The translations under genes were made by a program, and so were the position numbers. This document shows, in pieces, positions 1 through 18,000 of a stretch of DNA of 21,735 nucleotides. The notes under the pieces were generated by a model. The model saw only the letters and a list, made by a program, of their open reading frames with translations. It was not told the DNA's origin and ran no database searches. Positions within the stretch are counted from its first letter, which is position 1. Every line of letters begins with the position of its first letter. The stretch comes from a virus, in IMG/VR virus record IMGVR_UViG_3300027741_002057, positions 1 to 21,735 of that record; one strand, written 5' to 3'.

Positions 1-14
1 TTTTAATCCGTACC

Positions 15-46
15 CAAAGTACTTAAAATTTTGTTAAAAAAACAAA
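15..46 (-). promoter_or_regulatory. Possible Bacteroidota-type promoter, weak
   Basis: On the minus strand a TTTG (46 to 43) is followed after 21 bases by TACTTTG (21 to 15). This resembles the Bacteroidota promoter pattern of TTTG near -33 and TAnnTTTG near -7, but the -7 box has one spacer base too few. It would drive a gene beyond the left edge. The region is so AT-rich that chance is a serious alternative. Confidence 0.18.
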
Positions 47-55
47 TAAATATAT

Positions 56-616
56 TTATAGTACAAAATTACCATATAATTCCCGATTATTTAGTAAATA
101 ATCATAATTTTCTTCTTTTCTAGTGTTTGAAGAGAATCCATTGTATTGAATTGCAGCAAAAGGATTGCATACTTTAAACTCACCTAACTCAGATAAAGCC
201 CTATCAATATGCGCATCGGTTGGTGTAGATAAAAACTTTTCATAGAACTTAGAATGTACTATGTAGCAATGAAGTCCTGAGAATGTTTTTACCGTATTAT
301 CAGGTAGTATTTCCCCCATGTAAATGCCTGCTAAATAAATATCAAATGATTCAGGCTTGTTTTGTAAGAAATATTCAAATGAACCTTCACCACAGAATCT
401 AATATCATCTTCCATTATTAGTACCTCATCCCACTTAGCTAATTGTGCGTATTCTACTATTTGTTTGTGGCTTTGATTGATACCTTTTTGACTTGACTTT
501 TGGTCAATTATACCTTCCCATAATTCATAATCAGTTATACCATTACTAGACAATTCGTTTAATAATCTAGGTAATCGTTCTTGATAATATATGCTATGAA
601 TAATATTAGATTTCAA
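56..616 (-). CDS. GT25-like glycosyltransferase, compact, TTG start
   Basis: A 186-residue protein resembling the GT25 (LPS biosynthesis) glycosyltransferase family, probably transferring a hexose onto a glycan in the cytoplasm. Two landmarks are visible: INQSHKQI at residues 46-53, matching the family's conserved Ser-His element where the acceptor is sensed, and LIMEDDIRF at 66-74, the DxD-like metal and nucleotide-sugar site. It is slightly shorter than the GT25 gene at 5823-6443 and only distantly similar to it. The start is a TTG: an in-frame TGA lies only two codons upstream, and the next ATG is inside the EDD motif, so a TTG or a rarer start must be used. The gene overlaps the end of the exostosin-like gene by 11 bases, which suggests coupled translation. 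It is the last gene of the glycan block. The family call is good; donor and acceptor are unknown. Confidence 0.72.
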   Translation of the reverse strand: MKSNIIHSIYYQERLPRLLNELSSNGITDYELWEGIIDQKSSQKGINQSHKQIVEYAQLAKWDEVLIMEDDIRFCGEGSFEYFLQNKPESFDIYLAGIYMGEILPDNTVKTFSGLHCYIVHSKFYEKFLSTPTDAHIDRALSELGEFKVCNPFAAIQYNGFSSNTRKEENYDYLLNNRELYGNFVL

Positions 617-1409
617 GATATTTCATAATTTTGTTTAAAGCCCCTGCATATGTATAATATTCTTGATAAACTTGCTTACACTTATCTTGCATATCAATTA
701 TTTGCAACGGGGTGTAACTTTTCAGTATTCTTTCAATGTTATCAGCATCGCATTCAGGTATTAATATCCCGTATTCTGAGAAATCTAAATCGAGTGGTAT
801 AACAAACTCATCTGATATATAAACCGGTATTGTACCATACTGCATACATTCCCCTATTCTAAAGCTATTAAGTCCATATCCACGAGGACACAAACCAAAA
901 TCAGACTCTGATATTATTTTACAAAATTCTTTTGTATTATGTGCTGCATCAGATATGTAATAACCCTTGCTAGTTATGTTAAATATTTTTTCTCTTATTG
1001 GATGCGTATGTGTGCCTATAAATGATGCGATGTAATTCTTTTCTTTAATGGGAACATAAGAATGTGGCATAGATAATAAAGGAATTGGAATACCTATATT
1101 TTTACTCATACTAAACTGTAACAAATCTATTCTTGAAACATCTACTAAAATACCATCATCATACTGAACAATTGTCCAATACTTTTTGTCCTTTGGTAGT
1201 TCGTTTATAAAATTCTGAAGTCTTACTAGTGCTTCTACATCATTTCCATAATTATTATTTACTTGATAAGATGTCCACATTACAGGTAGATATTCACGAT
1301 TGGTTTCAGGCAATGATTGCATTATTACCCACTCTTCAAAAATTAATAAATTTTCGTATGGATATACAGTAAAAATTTGAGGTTTTGCCCAATCAGGTAC
1401 GTCAATCAT
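606..1409 (-). CDS. Exostosin-like (GT47-type) glycosyltransferase
   Basis: A 267-residue protein with the hallmarks of exostosin-family glycosyltransferases. ASFIGTHTHPIRE at residues 128-140 resembles the family's F-x-G segment followed by an R-containing helix. The stretch at about 169-200 (SDFGLCPRGYG, then SFRIGECMQYGTIPVYISD) is the conserved nucleotide-sugar binding core, with the usual acidic residue followed by G-IPV. These enzymes use a GT-B fold and an NDP-sugar donor; bacterial and viral members are usually shorter than animal exostosins, as here. No signal peptide or membrane segment is visible, so a cytoplasmic location is likely. Only three bases separate the start from the stop of the upstream homing endonuclease gene. 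In ancestral order it probably followed the FkbM methyltransferase directly. Donor and acceptor cannot be read from the sequence. Confidence 0.82.
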   Translation of the reverse strand: MIDVPDWAKPQIFTVYPYENLLIFEEWVIMQSLPETNREYLPVMWTSYQVNNNYGNDVEALVRLQNFINELPKDKKYWTIVQYDDGILVDVSRIDLLQFSMSKNIGIPIPLLSMPHSYVPIKEKNYIASFIGTHTHPIREKIFNITSKGYYISDAAHNTKEFCKIISESDFGLCPRGYGLNSFRIGECMQYGTIPVYISDEFVIPLDLDFSEYGILIPECDADNIERILKSYTPLQIIDMQDKCKQVYQEYYTYAGALNKIMKYLEI

Positions 1410-1412
1410 AAA

Positions 1413-2168
1413 TTATGATTTTTGATTAAAATTAAAAGACCATATATATTTATATGCTTTTTTATAAATACCATGACAACATTTATTTATACCAACAACA
1501 CTTCCATTTACATATATCGCAGCATCATTTACAAAATCCCATTTTTTAATAAATTCTCCATTTAATGAATATTGATAAACAGGTATTCTTTGTTTCATTC
1601 CCATACGCATTGTATTATATGTTTTTTCTTCATCTATATACGACCATCTATAACCATATGCGGAATAACATTTTCCTTTACAAGCCTTACATATATTGCT
1701 TCTATAAAAACCTAATTCATTTTCTACTTGAGAGATATAATCCCATGTTCTTATAAAAACATTATCTATTGTATATTGATTTATTTTTCTTGCAGCATTA
1801 TGTAATTCTTTAGATTTATTTGTCCTTTTCCCGTTTTCCCAAGATTTAGACATTTTTTCTTTAGTTATTTCTGATACTTTAGAAGTAGAACTGCCACCAC
1901 TTCTTAAATTTAATCCATTTTTTGTATTAAAACTATTATAAAATTTAATATAAAATTTTTCTAAATAATTTAATTCATTAATCATGCATTCTTTTACTAT
2001 TTCAAATTTATGATTATTCCAACCATATTTTTTTATAGAATTATAAAGAAATATTTGATTTTTACATAATCCTTTACTATAATTTTTTTTAACTCTATTT
2101 TCTATATCAATACTTTGCCCTATATATATTTTATTATTAGGAGAAGTTATTTTATAAATACCTATCAT
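1413..2168 (-). CDS. GIY-YIG homing endonuclease with NUMOD domains
   Basis: A 251-residue free-standing homing endonuclease. The nuclease domain is at the N-terminus: GIY at residues 3-5, YIG at 15-17, the expected catalytic Arg25, a Glu near residue 70 and Asn87 in GLNLRSGG. A NUMOD3-like segment follows at about 97-113 (SEITKEKMSKSWENGK). Two NUMOD1-like DNA-binding modules come next, at about 129-177 and 196-245, each running from a QY motif to a C-terminal W-S-F/Y. Such enzymes cut a target in alleles lacking the gene and spread by repair. The gene is visibly more AT-rich than its neighbours and has no role in glycan synthesis, which supports later insertion. Its ATG overlaps the FkbM stop as ATGA. 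There is no sign that it sits inside an intron, because the genes on both sides look complete. Confidence 0.93.
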   Translation of the reverse strand: MIGIYKITSPNNKIYIGQSIDIENRVKKNYSKGLCKNQIFLYNSIKKYGWNNHKFEIVKECMINELNYLEKFYIKFYNSFNTKNGLNLRSGGSSTSKVSEITKEKMSKSWENGKRTNKSKELHNAARKINQYTIDNVFIRTWDYISQVENELGFYRSNICKACKGKCYSAYGYRWSYIDEEKTYNTMRMGMKQRIPVYQYSLNGEFIKKWDFVNDAAIYVNGSVVGINKCCHGIYKKAYKYIWSFNFNQKS

Positions 2169-2797
2169 AACAAATTATTTTTAATCCAAACTGCATCACC
2201 CCAAGAATGGTAGTCAGAAGCCCATTTTGTTTCTACCCTTGTAAATTTATATTCTTTTAAAAACTCATCTAATTCTTCTACCATAGGGCATCCTTTATAT
2301 GTTTCTTCCCTATTTACTTCTAGATATAATAAATCAAATTGATTCAATACAGAAGTAGAACCTTTTAAAACTTCTAATTCATACCCTTGCGTATCTATCA
2401 TTAATAAGTTCAAGTTCTTAGAAATGTTTAATGAATCTAGTGTCACAACTTTTACTACTTCAGGTTCTCCATTAAATATTACTTCTTTGTGTTGTTCTAG
2501 GTGTACTAATGGTTCTAATAAACTATTGCTTTGCCCTTGATTTGTGGTATCAACATACATTACCCCTATTGATGGAGTACTTCCTATTGCAAAGTTTTTA
2601 AGTATTACATTATCGTTATCCTTAAACTTTTCTACTAAAATATTAAACGCTTGTTTAACAGGTTCGACATATAAAAACTCCTTACATCCGCATTCGATAT
2701 AAGTAGAATTCTCTTGCGCCCAATGTGCGCCAATATGTGCAACACCATTAAGTTTAATATTATATTTCTCTAGTATTGGTTGTAATGGTATTAGCAT
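2165..2797 (-). CDS. FkbM family SAM-dependent O-methyltransferase
   Basis: A 210-residue class I methyltransferase of the FkbM family, which typically O-methylates hydroxyl groups on sugars or polyketides. Visible motifs are the SAM-binding loop VAHIGAH at residues 19-25, the acidic EP pair at 45-46, TLDSL at 119-123, the family signature LMIDTQGYELEVLKG at 132-146, YLEVN at 158-162 and a C-terminal HSWGDAVW at 197-204. The domain is complete, from the N-terminal helix to the final strand. It overlaps the upstream epimerase gene by 7 bases and the downstream endonuclease by 4. Its place among sugar-transfer genes suggests that it methylates a sugar of the glycan built by this cluster. The exact position methylated is unknown. 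Confidence 0.88.
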   Translation of the reverse strand: MLIPLQPILEKYNIKLNGVAHIGAHWAQENSTYIECGCKEFLYVEPVKQAFNILVEKFKDNDNVILKNFAIGSTPSIGVMYVDTTNQGQSNSLLEPLVHLEQHKEVIFNGEPEVVKVVTLDSLNISKNLNLLMIDTQGYELEVLKGSTSVLNQFDLLYLEVNREETYKGCPMVEELDEFLKEYKFTRVETKWASDYHSWGDAVWIKNNLL

Positions 2798-3786
2798 GAT
2801 ACTTGTTTATTAATCCATGAATAAAGACTTTCCATTCCTTTTCTAAGTGGTTGTGTTGGAGTCCAATCTAATACTTCTTTTATAAGTGTATTGTCGCTAT
2901 TTCTACCCCTAACACCAATAGCATTTGATTCTACATTTTTTATTGTAAGATTTTTGCCACTAATTTCAATAACCATTTTTGCTAAATCATTAATTGAAAT
3001 CATTTCGTCAGAACCAATATTGATAGGATGCACATAATCGCTATCCATTAGTTTTCTGATTCCATCCAAGCATTCTTCTATCCATAGAAATGACCTTTGT
3101 TGCAATCCATCTCCCCATATTTCAATCGAATCTCCATCTTTTGCTTCGGCAACTTTTCTACATACTGCTGCAGGTGATTTTTCTCTTCCTCCTTTGTATG
3201 TACATTCTGTTGAAAATATATTATGAAATCTGCCTATTCTTACATCTAATCCATAATTTCTGCGATAAGAATCATATACTTGTTCTGATATTAATTTTTC
3301 TATTCCATAAACAGAATCAGGTTTTCCTTCCCATGCACTACTTTCTTTTAATGCTGCACTATTTAAATCTTCTTGTAATCTTTCTGAATAACAACAAGCT
3401 GAACTACTAAAAAATAATTTTTTGATACTTAATTTAGCTGCTATTGATGCTACATGAAGATTCATTATAGCTGAATCATGTATAATATCTGCATCATTTT
3501 CTTTACTGAATACATACAAAGCACCGCCCATTTGCGCTGCCAACATATACACTTCATCAAAAGAATTTTCTTTATCTGAAATATTTAATTGATTTGGTGA
3601 AAATAAAACTTTAGACATATTAAATTCACTTCTTAAATCTAATATTAAACTTTGGTCTGCTTCTGACTTACTAAATTCAGGTTGTTTTATATCTACCGAC
3701 CTTACCCAAAATCCTTCTTTTTTAAGTCTTTTGACAAGTTGCATTCCTATCATTCCATGTCCACCTAAAACTAATGCTGTTTTCAT
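2791..3786 (-). CDS. GDP-mannose 3,5-epimerase-like NAD-dependent sugar epimerase
   Basis: A 331-residue extended short-chain dehydrogenase/reductase. The NAD-binding GxxGxxG is at residues 8-14, the catalytic Y160-x3-K164 is in SVYGIEK, and Cys131 and Lys203 lie in SSACCY and KGGREKSP. From recollection of the Arabidopsis GDP-mannose 3,5-epimerase (C145, Y174, K178, K217), the spacings 29, 4 and 39 are identical here. Many other stretches follow that enzyme, such as RIGRFHNI, IGSDEM and GVRGRNSDN. The expected reaction converts GDP-D-mannose to GDP-L-galactose, with GDP-L-gulose as a side product. No gene for making GDP-mannose is in the window, so the host probably supplies it. The start overlaps the upstream methyltransferase stop as ATGA. 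Another NDP-sugar substrate remains possible, but the spacing match favours GDP-mannose. Confidence 0.88.
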   Translation of the reverse strand: MKTALVLGGHGMIGMQLVKRLKKEGFWVRSVDIKQPEFSKSEADQSLILDLRSEFNMSKVLFSPNQLNISDKENSFDEVYMLAAQMGGALYVFSKENDADIIHDSAIMNLHVASIAAKLSIKKLFFSSSACCYSERLQEDLNSAALKESSAWEGKPDSVYGIEKLISEQVYDSYRRNYGLDVRIGRFHNIFSTECTYKGGREKSPAAVCRKVAEAKDGDSIEIWGDGLQQRSFLWIEECLDGIRKLMDSDYVHPINIGSDEMISINDLAKMVIEISGKNLTIKNVESNAIGVRGRNSDNTLIKEVLDWTPTQPLRKGMESLYSWINKQVSC

Positions 3787-4400
3787 TTTATTACTTTTTT
3801 AGTTTGCCAATTAATTGTGTATTCCCAAATACCCCAATTATTATCTGTTATAATGGATTCTAATATTTTAGTTGGAGTTTGTTGGTTAACATATACCGTA
3901 AATGTAGGTAGTACTTCATCTACTGCATTTCTTACATCTGTTGCATTGTAATCGTGTCCTGAAAGAAATCCGTCTCCTTTTACTTTTCTGTGCCAAAGTC
4001 TTATATCTGCTTTTGTTAATTCGTATTCGTGTGATGCATCTATAAAAACATAATCAAAATAATCATCAGGGAATTCGCAACTAGCATCAAGGCTTCCTTT
4101 TATAATAAGTTCACAACTTTCCCCTACACCACTTTTTACTAAGTGATTTACTATTGTTTGTATCTGTACATTACCACCATATTGCATAGAATCTATTAAT
4201 ACAAATCTGTCTATTTTTTTACCTAAAGACAATATTTTTTCTGCTAGGTATATGGCTGATTTACCATTAGCTATTCCTACTTCTGCAATCTTACAGTTAT
4301 CAGGTAGTCTTTCTGCTACCATATCATAGTATAATGCAAAGTCAAACATTACACTATCGGGTTCAATTGTTAATGCGTACATATTTAAAGTTTTATCCAT
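3783..4400 (-). CDS. Class I SAM methyltransferase (Methyltransf_24-like)
   Basis: A predicted SAM-dependent methyltransferase of 205 residues. Motif I is IAEVGIANGKSAIYLA at residues 38-53, the acidic ribose contact is Asp70 in VLIDSM, and DYVFIDASHEYE at 116-127 and GFLSGHDY at 144-151 are typical of the Methyltransf_24 group, often found with sugar-modification genes. The reading frame extends to an ATG at 4451, but that adds 17 residues unlike the family and a 67-base overlap with the GT11 gene. The ATG at 4400 (16-base overlap) is preferred; 4382 would also work and leaves no overlap. Neither has a Shine-Dalgarno sequence. It is the second methyltransferase in the cluster, so the glycan may be methylated twice. 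The acceptor is unknown. Confidence 0.8.
   Translation of the reverse strand: MDKTLNMYALTIEPDSVMFDFALYYDMVAERLPDNCKIAEVGIANGKSAIYLAEKILSLGKKIDRFVLIDSMQYGGNVQIQTIVNHLVKSGVGESCELIIKGSLDASCEFPDDYFDYVFIDASHEYELTKADIRLWHRKVKGDGFLSGHDYNATDVRNAVDEVLPTFTVYVNQQTPTKILESIITDNNWGIWEYTINWQTKKVIK
3784..3795 (-). promoter_or_regulatory. A-rich translation start region, shared 12-mer copy 2
   Basis: The epimerase start lies in AGTAATAAAATG, identical to the start at 19872-19883, with AAAAA just upstream and no Shine-Dalgarno sequence. Part of it is also the coding end of the upstream methyltransferase gene, so the identity could be partly chance in AT-rich DNA. Confidence 0.4.
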
Positions 4401-5137
4401 GATGGGTCTAGTAAATCGGTTGTATCTAGATGATATCCTTCCACAAACCATAGTTTAGGGAATATACAAATTTTATTTGGGTTTCTGTTAAGCCAAGCAA
4501 TCCAAAACGAGAATGTACTAGAACAACAAATGTTAAATGCACAACATGATGCTTCAACCATATCTTCTAATTCGTTTCCTGTTTCAATTATTTTAATGTT
4601 TGGTATGTGGTTTAAATTTTCCAAACACCATGCTGTATCATCTGAATAAACTTCAAAGTTTTCTACTCCTGTATTGTTTATTAAATAATTAATGGCATCG
4701 TTTAGGTATTCTAATGTGTATGGTGGATGCTTATCGGTTAAATGTAAGTAGTCACCTCTGCGAATATGTATAGATGCAGTCTGTGGCTTTAGTTTCCATC
4801 TTAAATCAAATAGGTATAATATTTCCTTTCTGTATTCTTCTAGGTACTTCCATGACTGCCAATAACCATTTAAGACTATTTGTTTTCCCCTCCAATATTC
4901 GTCAAATGGAATGTCTTGAAATCTAAATCCGTTTTCGTTTACAAGTATGTCTTCTATGCCATTAACCCATTTGTCGTTATGTAAGTGTTGTAAGTATAAT
5001 GGATTCCAATATTCATCATTAGTTTCATTTGGTACAGAAAATTCTAGGTTATGTTTTAATGCGTAAGATGCAGCAGCAGCTATTTGAAACAATACGTTCC
5101 CAAGTCTCCCGTAACTTCTTGATTGAACTATTGACAT
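4385..5137 (-). CDS. GT11 family glycosyltransferase (alpha-1,2-fucosyltransferase-like)
   Basis: A 250-residue GT-B enzyme of family GT11. The N-terminal GRLGNVLFQ at residues 10-18 matches the family's G-G-x-G-N-x-x-F-Q opening. HIRRGDY at 124-130 is the conserved GDP-sugar binding motif shared by alpha-1,2 and alpha-1,6 fucosyltransferases, and SSTFSFWIAWLN at 206-217 is the third GT11 motif. The length is close to that of compact bacterial members, and no membrane anchor is visible. Known members transfer L-fucose from GDP-L-fucose. Here the only GDP-sugar enzyme in the cluster is the GDP-mannose 3,5-epimerase-like protein, so GDP-L-galactose (L-fucose with an extra 6-hydroxyl) is a possible natural donor. 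That donor assignment is inference. The start is an ATG overlapping the GT2 gene by 10 bases. Confidence 0.88.
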   Translation of the reverse strand: MSIVQSRSYGRLGNVLFQIAAAASYALKHNLEFSVPNETNDEYWNPLYLQHLHNDKWVNGIEDILVNENGFRFQDIPFDEYWRGKQIVLNGYWQSWKYLEEYRKEILYLFDLRWKLKPQTASIHIRRGDYLHLTDKHPPYTLEYLNDAINYLINNTGVENFEVYSDDTAWCLENLNHIPNIKIIETGNELEDMVEASCCAFNICCSSTFSFWIAWLNRNPNKICIFPKLWFVEGYHLDTTDLLDPSWIKL

Positions 5138-5826
5138 ATATTTCTTATTTTGGTTTCTACTTCTTCGTAAAAGTTTCCTGTTCTAGAAACATTATTTACA
5201 TAATGACTTCCTGAATGTACTAAGTGTTTGTATTCCATTCCTTCTACTACCTTTATTTTATTTCCTGTTGCTAACCAACAATAATTAAAATAAATACTAT
5301 CTGCTGTCACAGGGTTTACCTCGCCATCCCAAATGTCTAAGTATTGTTTTCTATTTATAAAAAAATTCATTGTGTTAAGCATCGTAGAAAACATTGGTTT
5401 ATCAAAGTATTCGTTTATATTCTCTTTTGTTATTGTCAAACCTGAAAATGCACGATAATCAAATGTTGGTTTAGCAAATGAAGGGGCAAAAATTACTTTC
5501 TCATCCCATTCTTCATTATAAATCGCATCTAAATATGCTTTATTCAATTGGTTATCGCTATCAAATATAATTATAAATTCTGACTTACACAAACTTGCTG
5601 CTATACATTTGTTCTTATAGCAATCTTGGTTTTCTTTGTTTCTAAATATCTTTATTTTAGGCATAGAACTTACTGCTGCCTTTAGTGTATAATACAAGTC
5701 TATGTCACTTGCATCATCTGAAATAATTATTTCTTCTATTCTTTCGTCATCCATTACAGATGCAAAGGATTCTAATGTCATTTCGTACCTATTCCATGAT
5801 GGAATTGCGATGGATATTTTTTTCAT
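5128..5826 (-). CDS. GT2 family glycosyltransferase
   Basis: A 232-residue GT-A glycosyltransferase. The N-terminal strand and loop ISIAIPSWNRYEMTLES (residues 4-20) and IIISDDASD (33-41) are the classic GT2 nucleotide-binding elements. IIIFDSDN at 85-92 holds the DxD metal-binding site. It has only the catalytic domain: no C-terminal membrane helices are visible, so it is probably a soluble transferase rather than a processive polysaccharide synthase. It starts at an ATG that overlaps the GT25 stop as ATGA and overlaps the GT11 gene at its 3' end. Within the block it could add one of the first sugars to the acceptor, but the order of action cannot be read from the sequence. Confidence 0.88.
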   Translation of the reverse strand: MKKISIAIPSWNRYEMTLESFASVMDDERIEEIIISDDASDIDLYYTLKAAVSSMPKIKIFRNKENQDCYKNKCIAASLCKSEFIIIFDSDNQLNKAYLDAIYNEEWDEKVIFAPSFAKPTFDYRAFSGLTITKENINEYFDKPMFSTMLNTMNFFINRKQYLDIWDGEVNPVTADSIYFNYCWLATGNKIKVVEGMEYKHLVHSGSHYVNNVSRTGNFYEEVETKIRNICQ

Positions 5827-6443
5827 TTTAATTCTGCTAATTTTTGATTATACCTACCAATTAAAAACGGATGCCAATCTATAAATGTATTACCTATGTC
5901 ACTTACCCCTGCCCTCTGTGTTGTCAAAATTGGATACGTTATGAAGCACCTTTGCATTGGTTGAACCTTATCAACTATTGAGTTATCGATAGGGGCTTCT
6001 AGCCCTACTGCAATGATTTCTTTCATACCTTGTAATGATATAGCCCAACTATGTGTAGCAAAAGCCTTATCTAGTTGTAGTAATGCGGATGAATGTCTTC
6101 TTTTAAAACCATCTGTAGCTTGTGCAGATAGGTATAATATGTGCCAATATTCAGGTAAGTCTTTTATGGCATCTTCCATTGTCCTATCTACTACATCCTT
6201 TGGTTCTACGAATAAACAATCATCTTCAAATATCAATATTGCTTTGTGCTTCTTTTGTATAGAATCTTTTAGTATGTTTTCTACTGTTTGTCTTAACCCT
6301 TCTGCGCCTTTTTCATGTTCTATTCCATCAACTAAGTCAAATTCAATTCCGTAATTGTCAAGTTCTTCTGATACTTCTATTAGTCTATCTACTCTTTTGG
6401 GTAGATTTATTACTACTATACGGTCAAAAAAATCTGTCCACAT
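5823..6443 (-). CDS. GT25 family glycosyltransferase
   Basis: A 206-residue protein with clear GT25 (LPS biosynthesis glycosyltransferase) features: VINLPKRVDRL at residues 11-21, the ILIFEDDCLF metal and nucleotide-sugar site at 69-78, YLSAQ at 104-108, ATHSWAIS at 129-136, and a C-terminal part with IDNSIVD and PILTTQRAG that matches the family's acceptor region. Members usually transfer galactose or glucose onto LPS or glycoproteins. The length is close to complete for a compact member. Its ATG overlaps the terminase stop by one base (TAATG on the coding strand), so the glycan block is physically joined to the packaging genes and probably read from the same late transcript. The acceptor is unknown. 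Confidence 0.87.
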   Translation of the reverse strand: MWTDFFDRIVVINLPKRVDRLIEVSEELDNYGIEFDLVDGIEHEKGAEGLRQTVENILKDSIQKKHKAILIFEDDCLFVEPKDVVDRTMEDAIKDLPEYWHILYLSAQATDGFKRRHSSALLQLDKAFATHSWAISLQGMKEIIAVGLEAPIDNSIVDKVQPMQRCFITYPILTTQRAGVSDIGNTFIDWHPFLIGRYNQKLAELK

Positions 6444-8476
6444 TATACTATTTTTTTCTTTTTGAAGAAATCTCCTACTTGAATAGCTTTTGTATCTGTT
6501 TTTATGTTGTATTGCTTATAATAAGATGCTACAAGTGTCCACATAGCTGCCATTGATAAATTAGATTTCTCTGTTTCGTTTACATTAAAACGTATCAAAT
6601 CGTATATTAATTCAGAAAAGTATATTTTGTTGTCTCTTCCTTCCCTTTCTATGTGTTGTTCTAGTAAGTTTACTCCTAGTGATTTATTTGATTCTGATGA
6701 TGGGATTCCATAGTCAGGATATTGGTCTAGCTTCATCATAAATGCTTCACAACCAAAGTTTTTGAAGTCATTTCTTATACCACCCTCTCTGTTATTTTCT
6801 ATTAATAATTGGCATCCAAAAAAGAAACATTGTTTAATCATATCCTCATTCTGCAAGGATGTTGTGTTAGGTCTTGCATGGTACTGCCATATGAACGATT
6901 TATCAAAAGTCTTAGACATTACACTATTATCATGTCTATTGTATACATAGCTTGCTGCCTTACTATTTATAGAATCTACTGTAATGTTATTTGCGAATGG
7001 GTCAATAGCACTCGTGAATCTGATATAATTTTTAGGTATAAATATGTTACCTCTTTTTTCTATTATATCATCAAATTTTCTAGTTTCTAGCCAATGTGTT
7101 AAGAATGATTTAGGTACTTTAAATTTAGAATCCCTGTCACCATCCTTCCATTCTACATCAGACATCATTTTGTTGTCCTTCCATATTAGATTCCCATAAC
7201 ACATTACTTCTTTTTCTATTGCAGTAATATTTGAATATGCATCTTCTAATAGTAGCTGATTAAAATGGCATTCGTTGTTAGATACTTTAAATGCTTCTTC
7301 TTCTGTTAGTGGTTCTTTTCTTATCTCTGCAATTAAATCTCTAGGGCTGTCTCTTAGTCTTTCTCTCTCTTCTAGTATGGACTTCCGATTTTTTAGTATG
7401 TGTGGTTCACCATATACATTAAACTCTCCTGACCTATCTGCAGGAATAAATAATTTATATAGCCCACTTTTTGTTCTTCCGTCTTCTTGTCTTTTTCTTT
7501 GGTCACTCCACTTCCACAACTCATCATATCTATATTTAATACCCAATTCCTCTACTGTAGTAGTAATAAGCATCTTACCTATAATTCTTCTTTGGATGTC
7601 TACAAGACACTTCCTTATCATAATATGTCCTTGTATTACATCAAACTCTACCTTACCCCTTTCATCACCTACATATCTTTTAAGTCTTTTACCATCGTAT
7701 GCTTTAGGATTGCTTTCTTTATAGTCTATTACAGAACGTAATTGTTTTCCCCTAAAGTTAGACGATGAATCTCTACCCTTAACAGATGTAAGTTGAAATA
7801 GCAATTCTTTTTTAGGTGTACTACCCCTTGATTTATCGTATACAGGTATAAAAAAATCAGGTAATTGTTGGAATGCAGGTACAATATGGTAGTCAAATAT
7901 TTCTGCTGCATCTTCTAATGTCTTGGATTGCATACCTCCTAAAGCCCTTGTACTCCTAGAAATACATTCGTAAATCATACAAGATGAAATTGCCGTCTTA
8001 CCGTTCCGCCTTTTACAGGTATAAAGCAATCCAAAACAATCAGGGTCTTCAACACAATACATCCACATATAAAATACCTCTAAGTCAATCATCCTAAATA
8101 AAGGTAATCCTGTATCTAGCTGCCAACAAGTAAGGTAAAACCAATGCAGTCCTGTAAGGTATATTTCCATCCCATTATTGTAAAACCATACCCCGTATAT
8201 TCTTCTATGCCACCATTTAGCCCTTATTTCTTCTAAGATTGGGTCAAAATAGTCTTCATCTATCTCTTGTTTTTGCTTTTCTTGATATCTTAAATCTTCC
8301 CAATTGTCAGGTAATGCATCTACTTCCCAATATTGTTCTGAATCTACATTACTTCTTTTAAATACCTCTACAGATTTTACATCCCCACTTTCAGATATAC
8401 CATATCCTAATGACGGAATATTCATGGTTAACCCATGCAATTCAATTACTGATGCGCCATCAATTTTTTTAAACAT
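6443..8476 (-). CDS. terL: Phage terminase large subunit (TerL)
   Basis: The DNA-packaging motor, 677 residues from the chosen start. The ATPase part carries Walker A CKRRNGKT at residues 154-161, a probable Walker B around 266-275 (KRYVGDERGK, acidic pair Asp271-Glu272) and a coupling motif ITTTVEE at 304-310. The C-terminal RNase H-like nuclease part shows SAIDPFA (Asp492), LLIENN (Glu560) and a late acidic DLIRF near 626. Together these fit a full two-domain terminase of the kind seen in Bacteroidota phages. The frame extends to an ATG at 8515, but the extra 13 residues (a Leu-rich stretch) lie inside the upstream gene and look like an out-of-frame artefact. The ATG at 8476, four bases after that gene's stop, is preferred. 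It packages genome DNA into procapsids with the portal, which is not in this window. Confidence 0.93.
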   Translation of the reverse strand: MFKKIDGASVIELHGLTMNIPSLGYGISESGDVKSVEVFKRSNVDSEQYWEVDALPDNWEDLRYQEKQKQEIDEDYFDPILEEIRAKWWHRRIYGVWFYNNGMEIYLTGLHWFYLTCWQLDTGLPLFRMIDLEVFYMWMYCVEDPDCFGLLYTCKRRNGKTAISSCMIYECISRSTRALGGMQSKTLEDAAEIFDYHIVPAFQQLPDFFIPVYDKSRGSTPKKELLFQLTSVKGRDSSSNFRGKQLRSVIDYKESNPKAYDGKRLKRYVGDERGKVEFDVIQGHIMIRKCLVDIQRRIIGKMLITTTVEELGIKYRYDELWKWSDQRKRQEDGRTKSGLYKLFIPADRSGEFNVYGEPHILKNRKSILEERERLRDSPRDLIAEIRKEPLTEEEAFKVSNNECHFNQLLLEDAYSNITAIEKEVMCYGNLIWKDNKMMSDVEWKDGDRDSKFKVPKSFLTHWLETRKFDDIIEKRGNIFIPKNYIRFTSAIDPFANNITVDSINSKAASYVYNRHDNSVMSKTFDKSFIWQYHARPNTTSLQNEDMIKQCFFFGCQLLIENNREGGIRNDFKNFGCEAFMMKLDQYPDYGIPSSESNKSLGVNLLEQHIEREGRDNKIYFSELIYDLIRFNVNETEKSNLSMAAMWTLVASYYKQYNIKTDTKAIQVGDFFKKKKIV

Positions 8477-8480
8477 AAGA

Positions 8481-9053
8481 TTAGTTAGTAGCAGCCATAT
8501 CTTCAGGAGTAGCACGTTTTACAACAAACTTACTCGCATCTTCATCACCATACAATTTTCTATATGCTGCATCAATTCTCAATTCGATTTTTTCCATTTC
8601 TTCGCCAAGTTTACCCTTACTTAGAAATGCATCTACATTTGCTTTATCCCTGCCATCTGTACTATCTTCAATTGGCTTTGTCATTCTCTTAAATGTTTGC
8701 CAATAGAATTCTTCATCTGCCATTATTCTAGCCCATAATCGGCTATTAATAAACTCCTTAATAAATCTATCTATACAGTCTAATGCATCATTGTCCTTTA
8801 AGCTAAATAAAGACTCTAGGTAACTGCCATCCGAAGATAGGTTATATCCTGCAAATTCTGCTGCTTGTTGCTTTCTAATTCTTAAATCCCTATATTCCTT
8901 TACAATAGGAGAATTATAATCATATACCGCTATGATATATCTTATAAGTTTCTCCTTTACATTTTTTATAGTCATCAATCTAGGATATACTACAAATAAA
9001 TCTTTTTTGCATGGGTTAAATAGGCATTTGTTAAAGTCTTTTTCGGTGTACAT
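8481..9053 (-). CDS. Conserved phage protein in small-terminase position
   Basis: A 190-residue soluble protein I do not recognise with certainty. It is rich in charged, helix-forming residues and has no membrane segment. Visible stretches are FVVYPRLM near 20-27, YIIAVYDYNSPIVKEYRDLRIRKQ at about 39-62, split by a conserved-looking YD-x-x-SP, and AAEFAGYN. The C-terminal third is likely helical with many acidic residues. It lies four bases upstream of the large terminase and just after the giant virion protein. That is where T7-like phages place the small terminase subunit, so a role in DNA recognition for packaging is a reasonable inference from position alone. No helix-turn-helix is evident by eye. 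A head or tail accessory protein is the alternative. Confidence 0.8.
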   Translation of the reverse strand: MYTEKDFNKCLFNPCKKDLFVVYPRLMTIKNVKEKLIRYIIAVYDYNSPIVKEYRDLRIRKQQAAEFAGYNLSSDGSYLESLFSLKDNDALDCIDRFIKEFINSRLWARIMADEEFYWQTFKRMTKPIEDSTDGRDKANVDAFLSKGKLGEEMEKIELRIDAAYRKLYGDEDASKFVVKRATPEDMAATN

Positions 9054-9057
9054 TGGT

Positions 9058-12000
9058 TTATTTTTTCTTTTTTGGTTCGTTCCCTAATTTAGCACCTGTA
9101 AATCCTTCTACTGTAAAATATAAAGTACCCATTAATACATCTTCTATTTGAAGATTTGTCATTCCTCTTTCTTTCATACTTCCAATAGCTTCTCTAACAC
9201 CTGCTGAAACAGGTATAGGTGCTTGTTGTTGTACTATATAGCTTCCAATAGTATATTGAGTTTCTCCTTTTTTAGGTTTAACATGAGAATATGGCAATGG
9301 TCTACCCATAGCATCTGTAGTTTCTACTATATCTGCTATTGTACTTGCAAAAGGAGATAGTTTATATCTTGCTTGAGTTAAAATTGTTTGATAATCTTTT
9401 TCAGCAGGTTTTTTCCATAATTGTTTTTTATTACCTGTATAACCTATAACTGTATTATCAAGTAAAGTACCTAATAGTTTCATAGATGCTAATGTTCCAC
9501 CTGTTACATCTAATGTTTTACCGCCACCTGTTTTAAATTTAAGCCAATCAGAACTTAATGGATTAGTATAATTAATTTTTTGTTTAGAACCCATTAATGA
9601 TAACAATGCTGAATTAGCTGCTAATAAAGCTACATAAGTAGCAATTTTTTCTCCTGCATTTCTAGCAACTAATTTAGCACCTGCTTTTTCTGCAGGACTA
9701 GCTTCTTTCCAATTTGTAAATGTTTTGGCTGCTTTTACAGGGTCTCCAATTAATCCTTGCCATCTTGATGCTTCTAATTTAGGTGCAAAAAATGTAGTAT
9801 TAACAATTTTAGATATTCTACCTCTTCCTAAATCTAATTCACTTGTGCCTGTAGAATGATTTACTAATTTAGCTATTTCTTTTGCTGTATTAGGGTCAGC
9901 CTTTTCTTCATTAGATAATCTATCATAAAATCCTTTGGCTAAATCAAGTCTATATACTTTTAAAGCATTAAATCCTCTATCACCTGTAACTCCCAATCTA
10001 TTAAACAATTTTTTAATACCATTTATTTTTCCTTCTGCATCTACATAATTTCCTTGATAATCATCATATTTAATTTTAGGGTCAACCGCTAATCCTGCCC
10101 TTTGCCAAAAAGTAAATTGTGGGTCATTTTTTAAATCTTCCATTGCCATTTCATATTTGGCAGTATCACCAAATGCATACTTGAATTGTTTAGCAAAAAA
10201 AGGTAAATAACTTTTCCATTTTGATGGTTGAAATATATTAGTACCTGCGTGAGTAATTCCTCCTACAGTTCCATGTCCAAATGTTTTTAATTTAAAAAAT
10301 GCACTAGGAATAGATTTTCTAAAATTTTTAATTTTAGAATTACCCTGTTCTTCTACCCATTGTTTTGCTTCATTAATAGCATTATTTCTTTTGTTTATAT
10401 TACGATACATTTCATCTGTTATTTCTTTTGCACCTTTTGGCTGAGAAATAGCAGTTCTTACTTGGTCTCTATTTAATCCTAAGTCTTTTGAAACTCCATT
10501 AAGCATTTCTCTATAGTCACTTCCTTTGTCTAAATATTCTTCTTTAGCATATTCCCATATAGATTTTGCTTCTTCTGTTGTAAACTTATTGTCTTTCTTT
10601 TCTGCAAATTTTATTTTTATATCTTGATTTTGTACAAAATCTCTAAAGGCTTTTTGTGCTGCTTTTTGTTTATCGGAATCAGAATTTTTATACCAATCAC
10701 TATTTTTAATATGTTCTAATCCATCTGCAATAGCTTGTGCAATATCACCACTTACTTCTACTGTTTTAGCCGTAATTTCTACTGCTGCATCCCAAACTAA
10801 TGAAGCAGGACTAGCAGAAGAAAATATATCAGGTCTTGATAATTTACCTTTTCTAATAACATTAGCAATTTCTTTTGATTTTTCTTTTATTCCTTCTTTT
10901 GCTTTAGGTTCAGTTTTTTCACCTTTGCTAATAGTATCAGTTAATTTTTTTTCTAAATCTTGTATTTTGTTATTTAAATCACTAACATTTTTTGTTAATC
11001 TTTCTACTTCTTTTGTTTGTTCTGTACTTAAATCTTTTCCTGTCTTTTCTTGCACAGCCATTGATACACTAACAAAATTACCTGTATCTAAATCAACTTG
11101 CCCTTGTAATGAACGACCTATTTCACCAAAAGCAGTTCCCATTGGCTTAACGACATTTTTAGCCCAATCATTTGCTTCTTTAATTGATTTTTTATATTCT
11201 TCACTACCAATGCCAAATTTTATTCGTGCATCATTAGCATCCCTTATTAATTCATTAAAATGCGCCCTAGCAACAGATATTATATCAGAATTTACTTTAT
11301 TATCTTTTTTAAATTCTTCTGCTGCTTTTATTGGGTCTGCACCATTTTTAATAAGTAACTTACCTCTTTCAGAATATTCTTCAGGTGTTAAAACATCACC
11401 TGTTTGAGGTTGTTCTAATCCTAATTTATCAGCTAATTCAGTTAACGATTTATGGGAGATACCAACCCTTTGCCCATTCCCATTTTCTTCTCCGTTTTTC
11501 TCGGTGGTAGTTTCATTCCCTTGCTCTCCTTGTTCCATTCCTCCACGTTTACCCCCTTGGCTTCCATCTCCTTCCTGTTTGCGTTGAAGTACTTCTCCTG
11601 CGCCTGACTTTTGTATGGCATCTATTTTATCTTTAATTGTTTGTAAATCTGTGTTGTTTTTTACTATATCAGATAGTTGTTCATCAGATACTTCTCCAAA
11701 ATTCTTTGTAATGAATTTTTTCTTTGCTTTTTCTGATTTAATACTATCGTATTGGCTTTGTAAATCGCCTTTTTCTTTTACTTTAGGAGTAGACATTAAT
11801 TCATCTATCTTAGCCTTATCTATCCCTATCTTTTCAGATGCTTTTTCTAATCCTGCTTGTATGTCTTTATCTGAAATACCTTTTTGTCTTTGTATTTCTA
11901 TAAAGTCTTTTATTTTAGAATCTTGGTCTTCTTTAGAAAATTGTTGTTTATTTTCTAAAATTGGTTGCTCTAAATATTTATCTAATGTTTTTGGAGATTT

Positions 12001-15000
12001 TCCTTCATTGCCATTATCCCATTTAGATTTATTAGCAGCATCTACTTTATCTTTAAAATTAGTAATATCTTTTCTAAATTCACTATCTGTAAGTTTTGAT
12101 TCTGAATCTAAAAATGCTTTATAATATTTATTACTTAATTCTTCTGCTTGTATTTTTAATGATTTTGGAACATTAGGGTCTCTATGTATTTCATAAAAAT
12201 AATGTCCTACACCATCAGGTATATCCCATCCTAATTTATTTCTAACTTCTTTTAAAGATTCTTTTGCTTTTGATTTTGCATCTTCAGGAAAATGCGAAAT
12301 ACCATCTTTTGCTAAATAGCCTTGAGGTGTCATTACCTGTATTTCGGCTATTTTACCACTTTTAGTTCTTAATTCAATAAGTCTTTTAGGATAACCTAAA
12401 TTAGTGGTTTCTCCCTCATTTCTATTTAATGTGGAATTAAATCTTCTTTTTATTTCATTAAATAAAAAATCTGCATCAGCATTTGTATTAACAATTACAT
12501 TTGCCCTAGCACCATCTGCCAATAAATTAGGTTGAACATCGTACCATCTAACTACTTTTACAGCAGCCCTTGAAGGTCTTTTAATACCAAATTCAGATTT
12601 AAATCCACCTGCTACCAATGATGCAACATCATTAGCTATAGTGTCTATTTCTTTTTTAGCTTTTTCGTATTGTTTTTTATCAGATGATATTATTGATGCT
12701 AATGGCTCAGATAATTTGCCTTCTAATTCTTTTATTCTAGCATCATCTTTATCAGAAAGTGATTCACCTTTATCAGCTAATTCTAATTGTTTTTGCCTTA
12801 AATCTCTATATTCTATAGCAGCATCAGATTCATTTATTTTCTTCCAATTTAAGAAGTTTTCGTTTCTTTCTTTGGCATTTTCCAATTCATTACGAAGCCC
12901 TGTCCTATCTTGCTCTCGCTGTAACCCTTCTCCATCAATCTTTGATATAATGGCTTTTCTTCTTTCAGCATCGATGTATTCACTTCTGACTGCGTGGTAA
13001 TCTTCTCTTGTAATTTGTCCTCCATATTCTTTGTATTTAGATTCAAAGATATTAATTTTTTCTTCAAAACCATCTATTTTAAATTCATGTATGTTAAAAA
13101 ATGATATTTCATCGTTTAAAAGAGTATAACCATTTTCATCAAATCCTGCATCTTTTACAGCCCTCATAGCAGCTTTCATATCATTAATACCAACCTCTAT
13201 CTTATCTGCATTATGGTATTTGCTACCTTTTTCTACATACATACCTGCAATGGTTGATTCCTGAACTTCAGGAGTTAAAGAACCATTAATTGCTGCATAT
13301 TTAACAATATCTTCAAACTTTCCTGTTACATTAACTACTGTAGTTACTTCACTTACACCTGCAAATCCTCCTATTCCATCTTTTTGATTATCAACTTTTA
13401 AATTAAAATAACCTGCTAATTTTTCATTTTTATTTTTAAATTCTTTATAAAATTCAGAATTTTGTAATAAAGCAGCTTGCTCAGGACTATCTACTCTAGT
13501 AGAATATAATGGGGCAACATTTACAGATGCAGAAACTATATCTTCATTTTCATTTTCTTCTCTTGAAAATTGTGGTTTTGCTTTTTCTGCTAATGGAGAA
13601 ACCCCTTCTGTTTTAGTTGGATTTAAATTTACAACCGAACTAATACCTGCTGATGCAGGAAGCATAGATGCTTGTTTTTCTTTATTACTTGCTATCGAAT
13701 TGCCATTCTCATCATTTACATGATTATACCAATAATCTCTTTGAGATAAAATGTGTATAGTTGGCTTTTCGTTGGCATCTGTAGACCTTAATGTATAAGG
13801 GTATGATTCATGTTCAGAAGTTTTTACAGGCTTAACATCTGCCCCTAATTCAATTATGGCATACATTTTACCTGACTGTTCACCCCTTAATGTAGGTTCA
13901 GCTAAAATATTAGAAAAACCTTGAGTTAAATTAGCCCTTGAAAGTTTTCCTCCTGTGCTTTTAAGTTTTTCATTAAAAGTTCCTGCCCCAAGAAATTCAG
14001 CTAATTGTTTAGCTACTTTTGGAGATGATGAATAAGATGCAATTCCTTCTAGTATATTTTGATTTAAAGATTTTCTAACGGGAAAGTCAGAATTTTCAGC
14101 AGGATAAAAATCTTTTAATTTTATATGTAAATCAGCCATAGTTTCATTACCTGTTATTTTAGGTAATGGTTTTTGAGATGGTTTCATGCCATCTTTGTTT
14201 TCATTCTTTAGTTTTTCAGTAGTTTTTATGCCTTTTATTATAGCTTTTCTTAATTGCTCAGGAGTAATACCTGATTTTTCACTAAAAGCCTTTGATGTTA
14301 AAATATCTACCAACCCAATGCCATTCAAAGATGAAGACATTAATTTATCAATTGGGGCAGAAATTAAAACCATTCTAACTTTACCATCAGGAGATTTTTT
14401 TCTAGCTTCATTTAATGTTTCTGCTAATTTAGATGCACCTCTTGATGTAGCTGCCCAAAAATCACCATTTTCATGAAACACCATAGGGTAATACATTCCA
14501 CCCTTACCATTAGCAATTAATTGTCCATCTTTTAATATTTGTCCTGAGAAACCTGCATCGGGCGCATGAAGTACGACTGCCCCTTTAAAATCATCTATAT
14601 TTTTATCAAAAGTTACATAACCATCATCTACTAATTTTTTAAATTCTTTTGAATTTTTAAAATATTTCCACTCTATTCCACTTTCTTGATGTTTAAAATC
14701 TGATTGAAATTGTACTCTTTCACTTGAATTTGCTTTTGAACCATTTTTAATTTCTATTTCTTCTCCTTTGGTAAATTTCTCAGAAACTAATTCTGCTAAT
14801 TTTTTAAGGTCAGTAATAGTATTTATATCTTTTCCTAATTCAAATCCTAACTTATTTACAGCATTTACAAAAAAGTCTTTTACTTTTTGAAAATTTGTTT
14901 TATCTATTTTAATTGTTCCATCTGCTACTTTTGCTATAAAATCAGTAATTGCTTCTTTTTTTATAGTTGTTGCATCTGAACCTTCATAAAGTTTGTTTGC

Positions 15001-18000
15001 GTTATCTATGACTTCTTTACCACCTTTTAAACCTTCTAATTGACTATGTAGGTTGTCAATTATATCAGGTCTATTTTTAGCCATATAATCTAAAACAGGA
15101 TGAAACCCTTCATGAAGCATAGTATCTGTAGTAACTCTTTCCATGTTTAGATGGATAGTTCCATCAGCATCTAAATAAAATCCTTTTGTAGTAGAATCTT
15201 GTTTTGTTCCACCTGCATCTATTACTGCTTTTTCATAACTAGATGGTGTTTCGTGTATGTTTACTTCTAATGGGTTTCCTGTAGTTTTTTCTACTAATTT
15301 AGAAACAGCTTTAACTACATTTTTAACATCTTTAACTACTTTCTTTTGTGTGTCATTTAATCCTTCTTCTGTTATTGTATCTATATTTTTAGAAGTATAT
15401 TTTTTAGCAGGTTTTGTTTCACCTTTAGGTTCTTCTATTATTCCTAAATGAGTTAATAAATCATCATGTACTGTATCTGCTGTTGTTTTTTCTTCTTTTG
15501 GTTTTAATTGTTCTTTAGCACCTTCTAATTGTGGGTATGTACCCGTAAGTTGTTTTAATTGGCTTTTCTTTTCTGATTCAGGTAATAAATCTAAAAATGG
15601 TTTCAATAGCCCAATAGCTTCATTTATTTGCATTGATGCTTCTTTTGGGTATTCGCTTAATCTAGCTTCTGCCGATTTTATAACTTGTAATAGGCTTTTT
15701 ACAGTTTCTATTACTTGCTCATTATCATTATCCTTTACTTTTTTAGTTTTATTTTTAGCTACTGCATTTACTTGTTCTTTAGGTGTTTCTGATTTAGGTT
15801 TTGATATTGGCTCTAGTGCATCTTTATTTACTACAAAGGCATCTACTCCGTCTATTGTATTTCCAATTACAATATCAACTCCTGCTTTTTTTAATTTTTC
15901 TTGGGCAGATTTATTATCCCAAAGCCTTGTTGTGATATCAGATGGATTTTCTCCTGTAGCCCATTCAGAACCTTTTTTTCTTTCCTTTTCTCCGATTATC
16001 CTATAAAATTCATCAATATCTTTTGCATTGTCAGAATAGTTTTCACTATCGCCACTTACTAATTTTAATATTTTTGCATCTTTTTTAATTGTAGAAGATG
16101 TCGTTTTACCCTCATCGCCTGCATATCCTTCTGCACCAATTTTATCTATTGAATGAAATCCTTTATCTAAAACTTCTTGACCTCCTCTATGCAATACAAA
16201 TCCTTCTCCAATATCATCTATATTAATTGGAGTATCATTTCTATCGTAAACTTCTTTGACAGGTTTAACTTCTTCTTTTGCTATTGTAGGTTTAACTTCT
16301 TCAACTACAGGAGTTACTTCTTCTATTGTTTTAGTTTCTGTTTTTTCTGTTGTTGGCTTAACTTCAGTAATTGCTTCAACTGTAGGCTTTTGAGTTTCTG
16401 TGGGCTGCTGTACTTCAGGGGCTTGTTTTTCAAGTTTAGTTTCAGTTTTAATAGGTTCTACATTTATTTTAGGTTCTACACCTGCTTCAATACCTGTTGC
16501 ATCATCTATTTCTTTTGGTTCTACTCCTTTTTTAGCTGCTGTATTTACTTCTTTATTTATACCATCTATTTGCTTTTGAATATCTGATATTTCTTCATCT
16601 ATTTTATTTTGAACAAATTCAGGTTTGCCTATTTTATCTAATTGTTTTTGTGTTATATCGTCTTGTAGTTTATTTGATTTTTCTATTTTACCTGCAAATG
16701 ATGCTAAATGTTCATCAGGTACATATCCTTCTACATTAGATGCAGCATTTTTATAATCTGCTATTGATTGTTTTATTTTTTCTCCTGCATCACCATATTG
16801 CTCTGATTTTAATTGTATTAGTTCTTCGGGTACATTTTTTAACCAATTCTTAGCTGCTGCTTTTAAATAACCTGCTGCAGGAATTATTCCTCCTATAATT
16901 CTAAATCCTAAATCCATTTTACCCCACTCTGCTGTACTTCCCCAAACTCTACCAATAGCATTTGGAAGTGTTTCCTTATATCCTCCTAATGATTCAACAC
17001 CTATTTTACCTATTTCAGATGCACCACCTAATGCTGCAATTTTTAATACACTTTTACCTGATTTTATTAATGCATTTTTAAATGTATTATCTGCTACTGC
17101 AGGTACTGTCTTAGGTAAATTTCCTAATTCACCTGACATTACAAAAGCCATAGCAGCATCAGGTAATGCCGTATATGTAGCAACATCCATTGCTTTTTTT
17201 GCAGCATCTACATCACTTAATCCTTGTTGTTTTCCTGCTATATATAATTTTCTTTTTTCATTTGCTAATGCACTATAATATGCTTCAGCTACCATAGCAG
17301 TAGTTCCCATTCCACCTGCTACAGCATTTAATGCTAATAATGATATAGGTTTAACTACACCCCCTATTAATTCAGCCCCACTACCCAATATTTTAGATGG
17401 TTTAGATGATTCTTCTTCTGTTTGTTCATTCATTTTTTGAACAAACTGATTCGGGTCGCTTATTTTATTTACATCATATGCATCTATAGGTGCTTTAAAA
17501 CTATTGTAAATTGTTTTACCTAATGTTTCCGCAAACCCTTCACTTCTAAATAATTTTGGTTCTCCACTATTATCTTTATCTACAACTAAATTATCATTAG
17601 ATAATTGATTATTTAAATCTCTTTCTTTTTGTAAATATTGTTGTGTATTAGGTTTTATTCCTTGATTTAAAAGAGAATTTTTTATTGCAGTTTGTTTATC
17701 ATCTTCCCTTTTTTGTAATTTTTGTTGTAATTCTCCTTCTTGTTGTGGTTCTGCAACTATTCCAAATTGTCCACCCTTTAATGTTGTTGGTAATTGTAAA
17801 TTAGTACTTGTTCCTTCTGCTGCTGCTTTTTCTTCTGTTGCTATTTTTCTAACAGGTTGTGTAGATGGTTTTCTAGAAACTTCAGTTGCTTTTGCTTTAG
17901 AAACCATTTCTAATGGCGCACTTGTATAGTCTGTTAGTTTTGAAGGTCTTTTAATTTCTTCTGTAGGTATTGTTTTTTGTCTTGAATCACTATATGCTGT

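Follow-up and report, generated by a model that had tools for sequence, protein, structure and literature searches.

The window considered here is the whole 21,735-nt sequence of IMG/VR record IMGVR_UViG_3300027741_002057, a 21.7-kb piece of an uncultured tailed phage. Nine tightly packed open reading frames on the minus strand occupy positions 56-6443, immediately after the large terminase gene (terL). They comprise five glycosyltransferases (GTs), two methyltransferases, one nucleotide-sugar epimerase and one homing endonuclease. A preliminary description of the sequence reported this packing and the GT, methyltransferase and epimerase types, and both were borne out, the latter by Pfam matches and by an AlphaFold model of the last gene product that matches GT25 enzymes. 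Of the nine genes, eight are glycan genes, and the ninth (1413-2168) is a GIY-YIG homing endonuclease, an invader which is not at that position in the relatives compared. The transcription order is GT25a, GT2, GT11, Methyltransf_24, epimerase, FkbM, GIY-YIG endonuclease, GT47 and GT25b. The genes and their borders are listed below; G001 (IMGVR_UViG_3300027749_000093) is a longer contig of the same phage.

6443..8515, minus strand: terL, large terminase, the upstream border (PHROG 6681, E 5e-57); probable start 8476
5823..6443, minus strand: GT25a, glycosyltransferase family 25 (PF01755, E 2e-6; EDD motif); overlaps the terL stop by 1 nt
5128..5826, minus strand: GT2 glycosyltransferase, soluble (PF00535, E 7e-14; DSD motif; no transmembrane (TM) segment)
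4385..5137, minus strand: GT11, alpha-1,2-fucosyltransferase family (PF01531, E 5e-19; PHROG 2644, E 2e-31; HIRRGDY)
3783..4451, minus strand: Methyltransf_24 S-adenosylmethionine-dependent methyltransferase, MT24 (PF13578, E 6e-14); probable start 4400
2791..3786, minus strand: GDP-mannose 3,5-epimerase homologue, GME (Pfam Epimerase, E 1e-32; PDB profile 2c59, E 5e-101)
2165..2797, minus strand: FkbM-family O-methyltransferase (PF05050, E 1e-16; TIGR01444 above cut-off); predicted to cap a glycan
1413..2168, minus strand: GIY-YIG/NUMOD1 homing endonuclease (PF01541, PF07453; PHROG 314, E 6e-27)
606..1409, minus strand: GT47, exostosin-family glycosyltransferase (PF03016, E 2e-14)
56..616, minus strand: GT25b, GT25-like transferase (AlphaFold2 model and Foldseek); the most widely kept cassette gene
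1..55, minus strand: leader before the portal gene, which starts about 11 nt beyond the window end (G001 position 44970)

The junction between terL and the cassette is present in three contigs from other assemblies (72.4 kb, which is G001, 13.1 kb and 11.4 kb). Since the same phage is 100% identical in these assemblies, the junction cannot be put down to misassembly. In G001, 65 nt separate the end of the cassette from an 803-aa portal gene (PHROG 6547, E 1e-55). This is followed by a 375-aa protein and then by a 450-aa protein which has no PHROG match and is taken, from its size and place, as the putative major capsid protein (MCP). In Elemovirus the portal gene directly follows terL; the cassette thus sits inside the head and packaging operon, between genes which are neighbours elsewhere. 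Stable linkage to structural genes, a supporting rather than a strictly defining criterion for a phage virion glycosylation system, is found here. The G+C content of the cassette is close to that of the remaining phage, and scans for promoters and terminators gave nothing above chance.

Relatives were gathered by a scan with an MCP alignment, which gave 55 contigs, all of them metagenomic and possibly incomplete. The region upstream of portal is readable in 43 of these. The preliminary description proposed looking for the block after terL in related phages; it is present in 38 of the 43 contigs, which collapse to about 20 distinct phages when grouped at 95% portal identity. Two contigs (L058 and L059) have GT25b only, and three have no cassette gene. 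The cassette recurs down to about 55% MCP identity. Wherever it is readable, the order TerL-GT25a-GT2-GT11-MT-GME-FkbM-GT47-GT25b-Portal is identical; variations on it consist of fusions, extra methyltransferases and the absence of GME from three related phages. The 1-nt overlap between terL and GT25a (TAATG), noted in the preliminary description, was confirmed; of the 27 loci that could be read, 20 share it exactly. Some of the 27 are duplicate views of one contig; the tally of 43 contigs counts each once. GT25b and portal never overlap, and are mostly separated by 51-76 nt. Within the cassette, an internal ATG at 4400 is the probable start of MT24 and would give a 16-nt overlap with GT11, the commonest overlap in relatives.

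The relatives lacking GME (L163, L164 and L090) have a protein of about 224 aa with an HxD...H pattern in the block, perhaps a 2-oxoglutarate/Fe(II) dioxygenase; its structure model (pLDDT 39) gave no usable fold. The L163 block also carries a GT8 gene. A distant 78-kb phage (L095/L165, IMGVR_UViG_3300021138_000016) has relatives of GT2-GT11-MT-GT47-GT25a upstream of terL on the same strand, a second link of these enzyme families with packaging genes. In a 313-kb, jumbo-size record (L102, IMGVR_UViG_3300037502_003770), relatives of GT25a, GT11 and FkbM adjoin at 9992-12000. A tblastn search of GT25a, GT25b, GT47 and GT11 against 50,697 phage records found the block in no cultured phage; the only matches were distant ones in cyanophages, marine viruses and huge metagenomic phages. 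A literature search found no description of the phage clade. Enzymes of these types have been seen in phages before; what is new is the cassette's fixed location, its deep conservation and the swapping of its alleles.

Cassette genes are under purifying selection, as is MCP. Close pairs have median dN/dS values of 0.03-0.09 in cassette genes, compared with 0.056 in MCP and 0.023 in portal. Most cassette genes track portal and MCP and not terL: pairwise identity of GT25a, GT2, GT47 and GT25b correlates with that of MCP and portal at rho 0.79-0.93 and with that of TerL at only 0.06-0.66, while FkbM, GME and GT11 follow MCP and portal less well (0.51-0.75). These rho values are descriptive, as pairs are not independent. 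The window terL is 31-34% identical to the terL of L017/L156 and L018/L158, including a relative with portal and MCP 78-81% identical; terL and the structural module therefore have different histories.

In a tree of portal, MCP, gp56 and gp58, rooted on a cassette-free phage, the phages with GT25b only branch outside all full-cassette phages. This suggests that the cassette grew from a single GT25b; loss in the GT25b-only branch would be an alternative. Individual genes also move. In the pairs L034/L067 and L030/L029, GME alone falls to about 55-75% nucleotide identity and the adjoining genes stay near 84-99%. Both alleles are GME by PDB match (the second at 2e-88, against 7e-25 for the next family). 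Such single-gene drops in close pairs indicate that decoration genes are exchanged and that backbone transferases mostly stay. GIY-YIG and HNH homing endonucleases occupy positions in the block that vary from phage to phage (outside the window, HNH was assigned by reading the sequences); we infer that these endonucleases may promote allele exchange.

The epimerase is predicted to be a true GDP-mannose 3,5-epimerase. Its match to 2c59 compares with 5e-28 for the next non-GME short-chain dehydrogenase/reductase, and the catalytic residues of Arabidopsis GME (C145, K217 and YxxxK) have their counterparts in the alignments. The predicted product is GDP-L-galactose or L-gulose. GME converts GDP-mannose to GDP-L-galactose. 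The alpha-1,2-fucosyltransferases belong to GT11, and their sugar, L-fucose, is 6-deoxy-L-galactose; L-galactosyl transfer is thus a natural inference, and GT11 is a candidate user of GDP-L-galactose. Its family membership is clear (PF01531, 69 bits against a cut-off of 23.9), and the HxRRGDY motif is kept. The motif is degenerate in L018 (HCRFGDY), and a PDB search with GT11 gave no match. In GT25a, FEDD is invariant among relatives. GT25b fails the PF01755 profile, has no Pfam match and is classed as GT25-like by fold only. Its AlphaFold model (pLDDT 93.9) has a GT25 fold and an acidic EDD-type motif, and EDD is invariant across 20 homologues. The best Foldseek matches are mimivirus R655 (1e-8), bacterial beta-1,4-galactosyltransferases and human COLGALT1 (6e-7); the modelled fold is thus similar to that of GT25 enzymes which glycosylate proteins, COLGALT1 and R655 among them. 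No cassette protein has a membrane-type hydrophobic segment.

We consider it moderately probable that the block is a core module with which the aquatic phages of this clade make a short, methyl-capped glycan late, in the host cytoplasm, and attach it to a virion protein of the same operon. GME would turn host GDP-mannose into GDP-L-galactose. GT25b, which is retained where all other cassette genes are missing, would attach the first sugar to protein; GT25a, GT2 and GT47 would lengthen the chain. GT11 would add L-galactose, or host L-fucose, and FkbM and MT24 would O-methylate sugars. Exchange of GME and methyltransferase alleles would alter the outer decoration, and perhaps adsorption or escape from glycan-binding defences. 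A fuller version is offered only tentatively: the clade would maintain, by vertical inheritance, a complete pathway of its own for a virion glycan that contains L-galactose and is capped by methyl groups. This pathway would have grown stepwise from one GT25-like transferase next to portal, with its donor-sugar enzyme and methyltransferases exchanged as alleles in the manner of serotype genes, and would parallel in phages the capsid glycosylation and antigenic variation of chloroviruses.

Glycosylation of the virion, which the preliminary description preferred, is favoured because no TM segment, GtrA, lysogeny gene or DNA hydroxymethylase was found and because the cassette diverges together with portal and MCP; the acceptor is a predicted one. 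Donor conversion, several transferases and methyl capping, as first described, agree with the sequence and gain weight from conservation, the glycan itself being a prediction. Late co-expression with virion genes likewise fits the sequence and the conserved place inside the terL-portal operon. Several points weigh on the other side. The glycan and its acceptor protein are predictions, and late timing is read from gene position only. Simple linkage would also give co-divergence with portal; yet terL, which is equally close, does not share it.

The main rival is that the cassette alters host surface glycans such as lipopolysaccharide (LPS) or capsule, so that superinfection is blocked or progeny do not stick to debris. 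This is possible, though rather unlikely. LPS is among the substrates of the GT25 and GT11 families, and GT25, GT2, GT11 and FkbM enzymes are found in LPS and O-antigen pathways. A late surface change would help released progeny. A set of GME, fucosyltransferase and GTs in cyanophages has been interpreted as modifying the host cell wall or LPS (PMC9602691). The combination called unusual in the preliminary description is only partly so: S-SCSM1 is one of the cyanophages with GME, fucosyltransferases and numerous GTs. By itself, then, the set of enzymes has precedents, and the surface explanation is kept. Against it, the cassette proteins lack TM segments (although a host flippase could still be supplied by soluble GTs), the GtrA family is absent from 16 relatives, and no integrase or resolvase was found in these, so that there is no sign of a lysogenic phase to protect. 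Lysogenic conversion was rejected on the same absences. A surface-conversion set would not be expected to lie between terL and portal or to diverge in lockstep with portal and MCP.

It is improbable that the glycan is attached to a small molecule or a host protein, such as a defence factor. The enzymes are soluble and cytosolic, and the acceptors of GT47 and GT11 are not readable from sequence, which would suit such a target; late-operon position and the tracking of portal and MCP favour a virion substrate. Still less probable is glycosylation of phage DNA, in which hypermodified bases would evade restriction. GT47, GT11 and FkbM are not known to act on DNA bases. A thymidylate-synthase-type hydroxymethylase is present in none of the 16 records, which may be incomplete, and DNA glycosylation was rejected on this ground. 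The phage does encode a DNA methyltransferase, and hypermodification of DNA by viral GTs has been described (work cited in PMC12619734). That the block is a passenger island or host cluster caught beside terL without a stable phage role, or a misassembly, is the least credible explanation and was rejected, as was the misassembled host island that the preliminary description named as a possible refutation: homing endonucleases invade the block at several places and GME and FkbM alleles move between phages, but four assemblies share the junction, the order is kept in about 20 distinct phages, dN/dS is low and G+C is near that of the rest of the phage. The shared order and the dN/dS values refute this explanation to the extent that sequence can.

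The right part of the window encodes a protein resembling the internal virion protein gp14 of T7 (Pfam E 0.002, which is below cut-off), two further proteins of 530 and 3073 aa, a weak candidate for the small terminase gene (terS), and terL. The 3073-aa protein (9058-18279), flanked by the 530-aa protein and the terS candidate, occupies the place expected of a T7 gp16-like internal virion protein; its family matches are only chance-level. An imperfect direct repeat of about 69 bp is found within its gene at 18052-18210. For terL, the ATG at 8476, just past the stop of the terS candidate (8481), is the probable start in place of the GTG at 8515; the L018 homologue begins at the equivalent residue. 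G001 has a perfect 4,495-bp inverted terminal repeat (1-4495 and 67933-72427), each end of which closes with a near-palindrome of about 160 bp. Four relatives have the left end only, without the long repeat, which may thus reflect either an assembler reading through a hairpin or a genuine hairpin end; G007 shows a perfect one of 127 bp. By terL and portal, the closest cultured phages are Flavobacterium, Cellulophaga, Tenacibaculum and Maribacter phages (21-27% identity). The clade appears podophage-like, and these distant relatives, which infect Bacteroidota, suggest the same for its host. A scan of genome contigs for the host gave one phage contig in a metagenome bin, and was not used as host evidence.

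Among known systems, the gtrABC seroconversion cassettes consist of phage-borne GTs with membrane proteins, in temperate phages. The cassette described here has no TM protein or GtrA, and no integrase was found in the relatives; neither a GtrA flippase nor membrane transferases, which mark a gtr cassette, are present. Cyanophages (S-SCSM1, S-SM2) have a GME about 50% and a GT11 about 31% identical to those of the cassette, and in S-SM2 GT11 adjoins a gene named GT25. However, their genomes are T4-like, and the S-SM2 set lies among sugar and auxiliary metabolic genes, outside the packaging operon.

Virion glycosylation by phage-encoded enzymes has been demonstrated in few phages. In mycobacteriophages (Che8, Rita; Freeman et al. 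2023), phage-encoded GTs glycosylate capsid and tail proteins, according to PMC11256854 and PMC12619734; here the virion target is predicted. The GTs of temperate Maravista lie near the 3' end of the genome, whereas eight genes lie between terL and portal here, and donor synthesis and two methyltransferases are added. With a whole pathway fixed in the head operon of many uncultured phages, routine glycosylation of particles and the identity of the sugar become testable, as does whether a one-gene swap yields a new surface type.

In chlorovirus PBCV-1, a viral methyltransferase caps an MCP glycan made by viral enzymes (PMC7019647), and antigenic variants differ in this glycan (PMC7019647, PMC4691112). 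The likeness lies in a virus-encoded pathway independent of the ER and Golgi, with its own GDP-sugar enzymes, several GTs and a methyltransferase for the terminal sugar (PMC7019647, PMC4691112). PBCV-1 is a eukaryotic virus with GDP-L-fucose/D-rhamnose enzymes instead of GME, and no homology is claimed. The flagellin glycosylation islands of Enterobacteriaceae are a close architectural analogy, variable FkbM enzymes included: GT, sugar and FkbM genes adjoin the gene of the decorated protein, and modifying enzymes can vary while the GTs stay (PMC4875605). Those islands belong to a bacterial flagellar locus and are poorly conserved, whereas the order of the cassette is kept throughout the phage clade.

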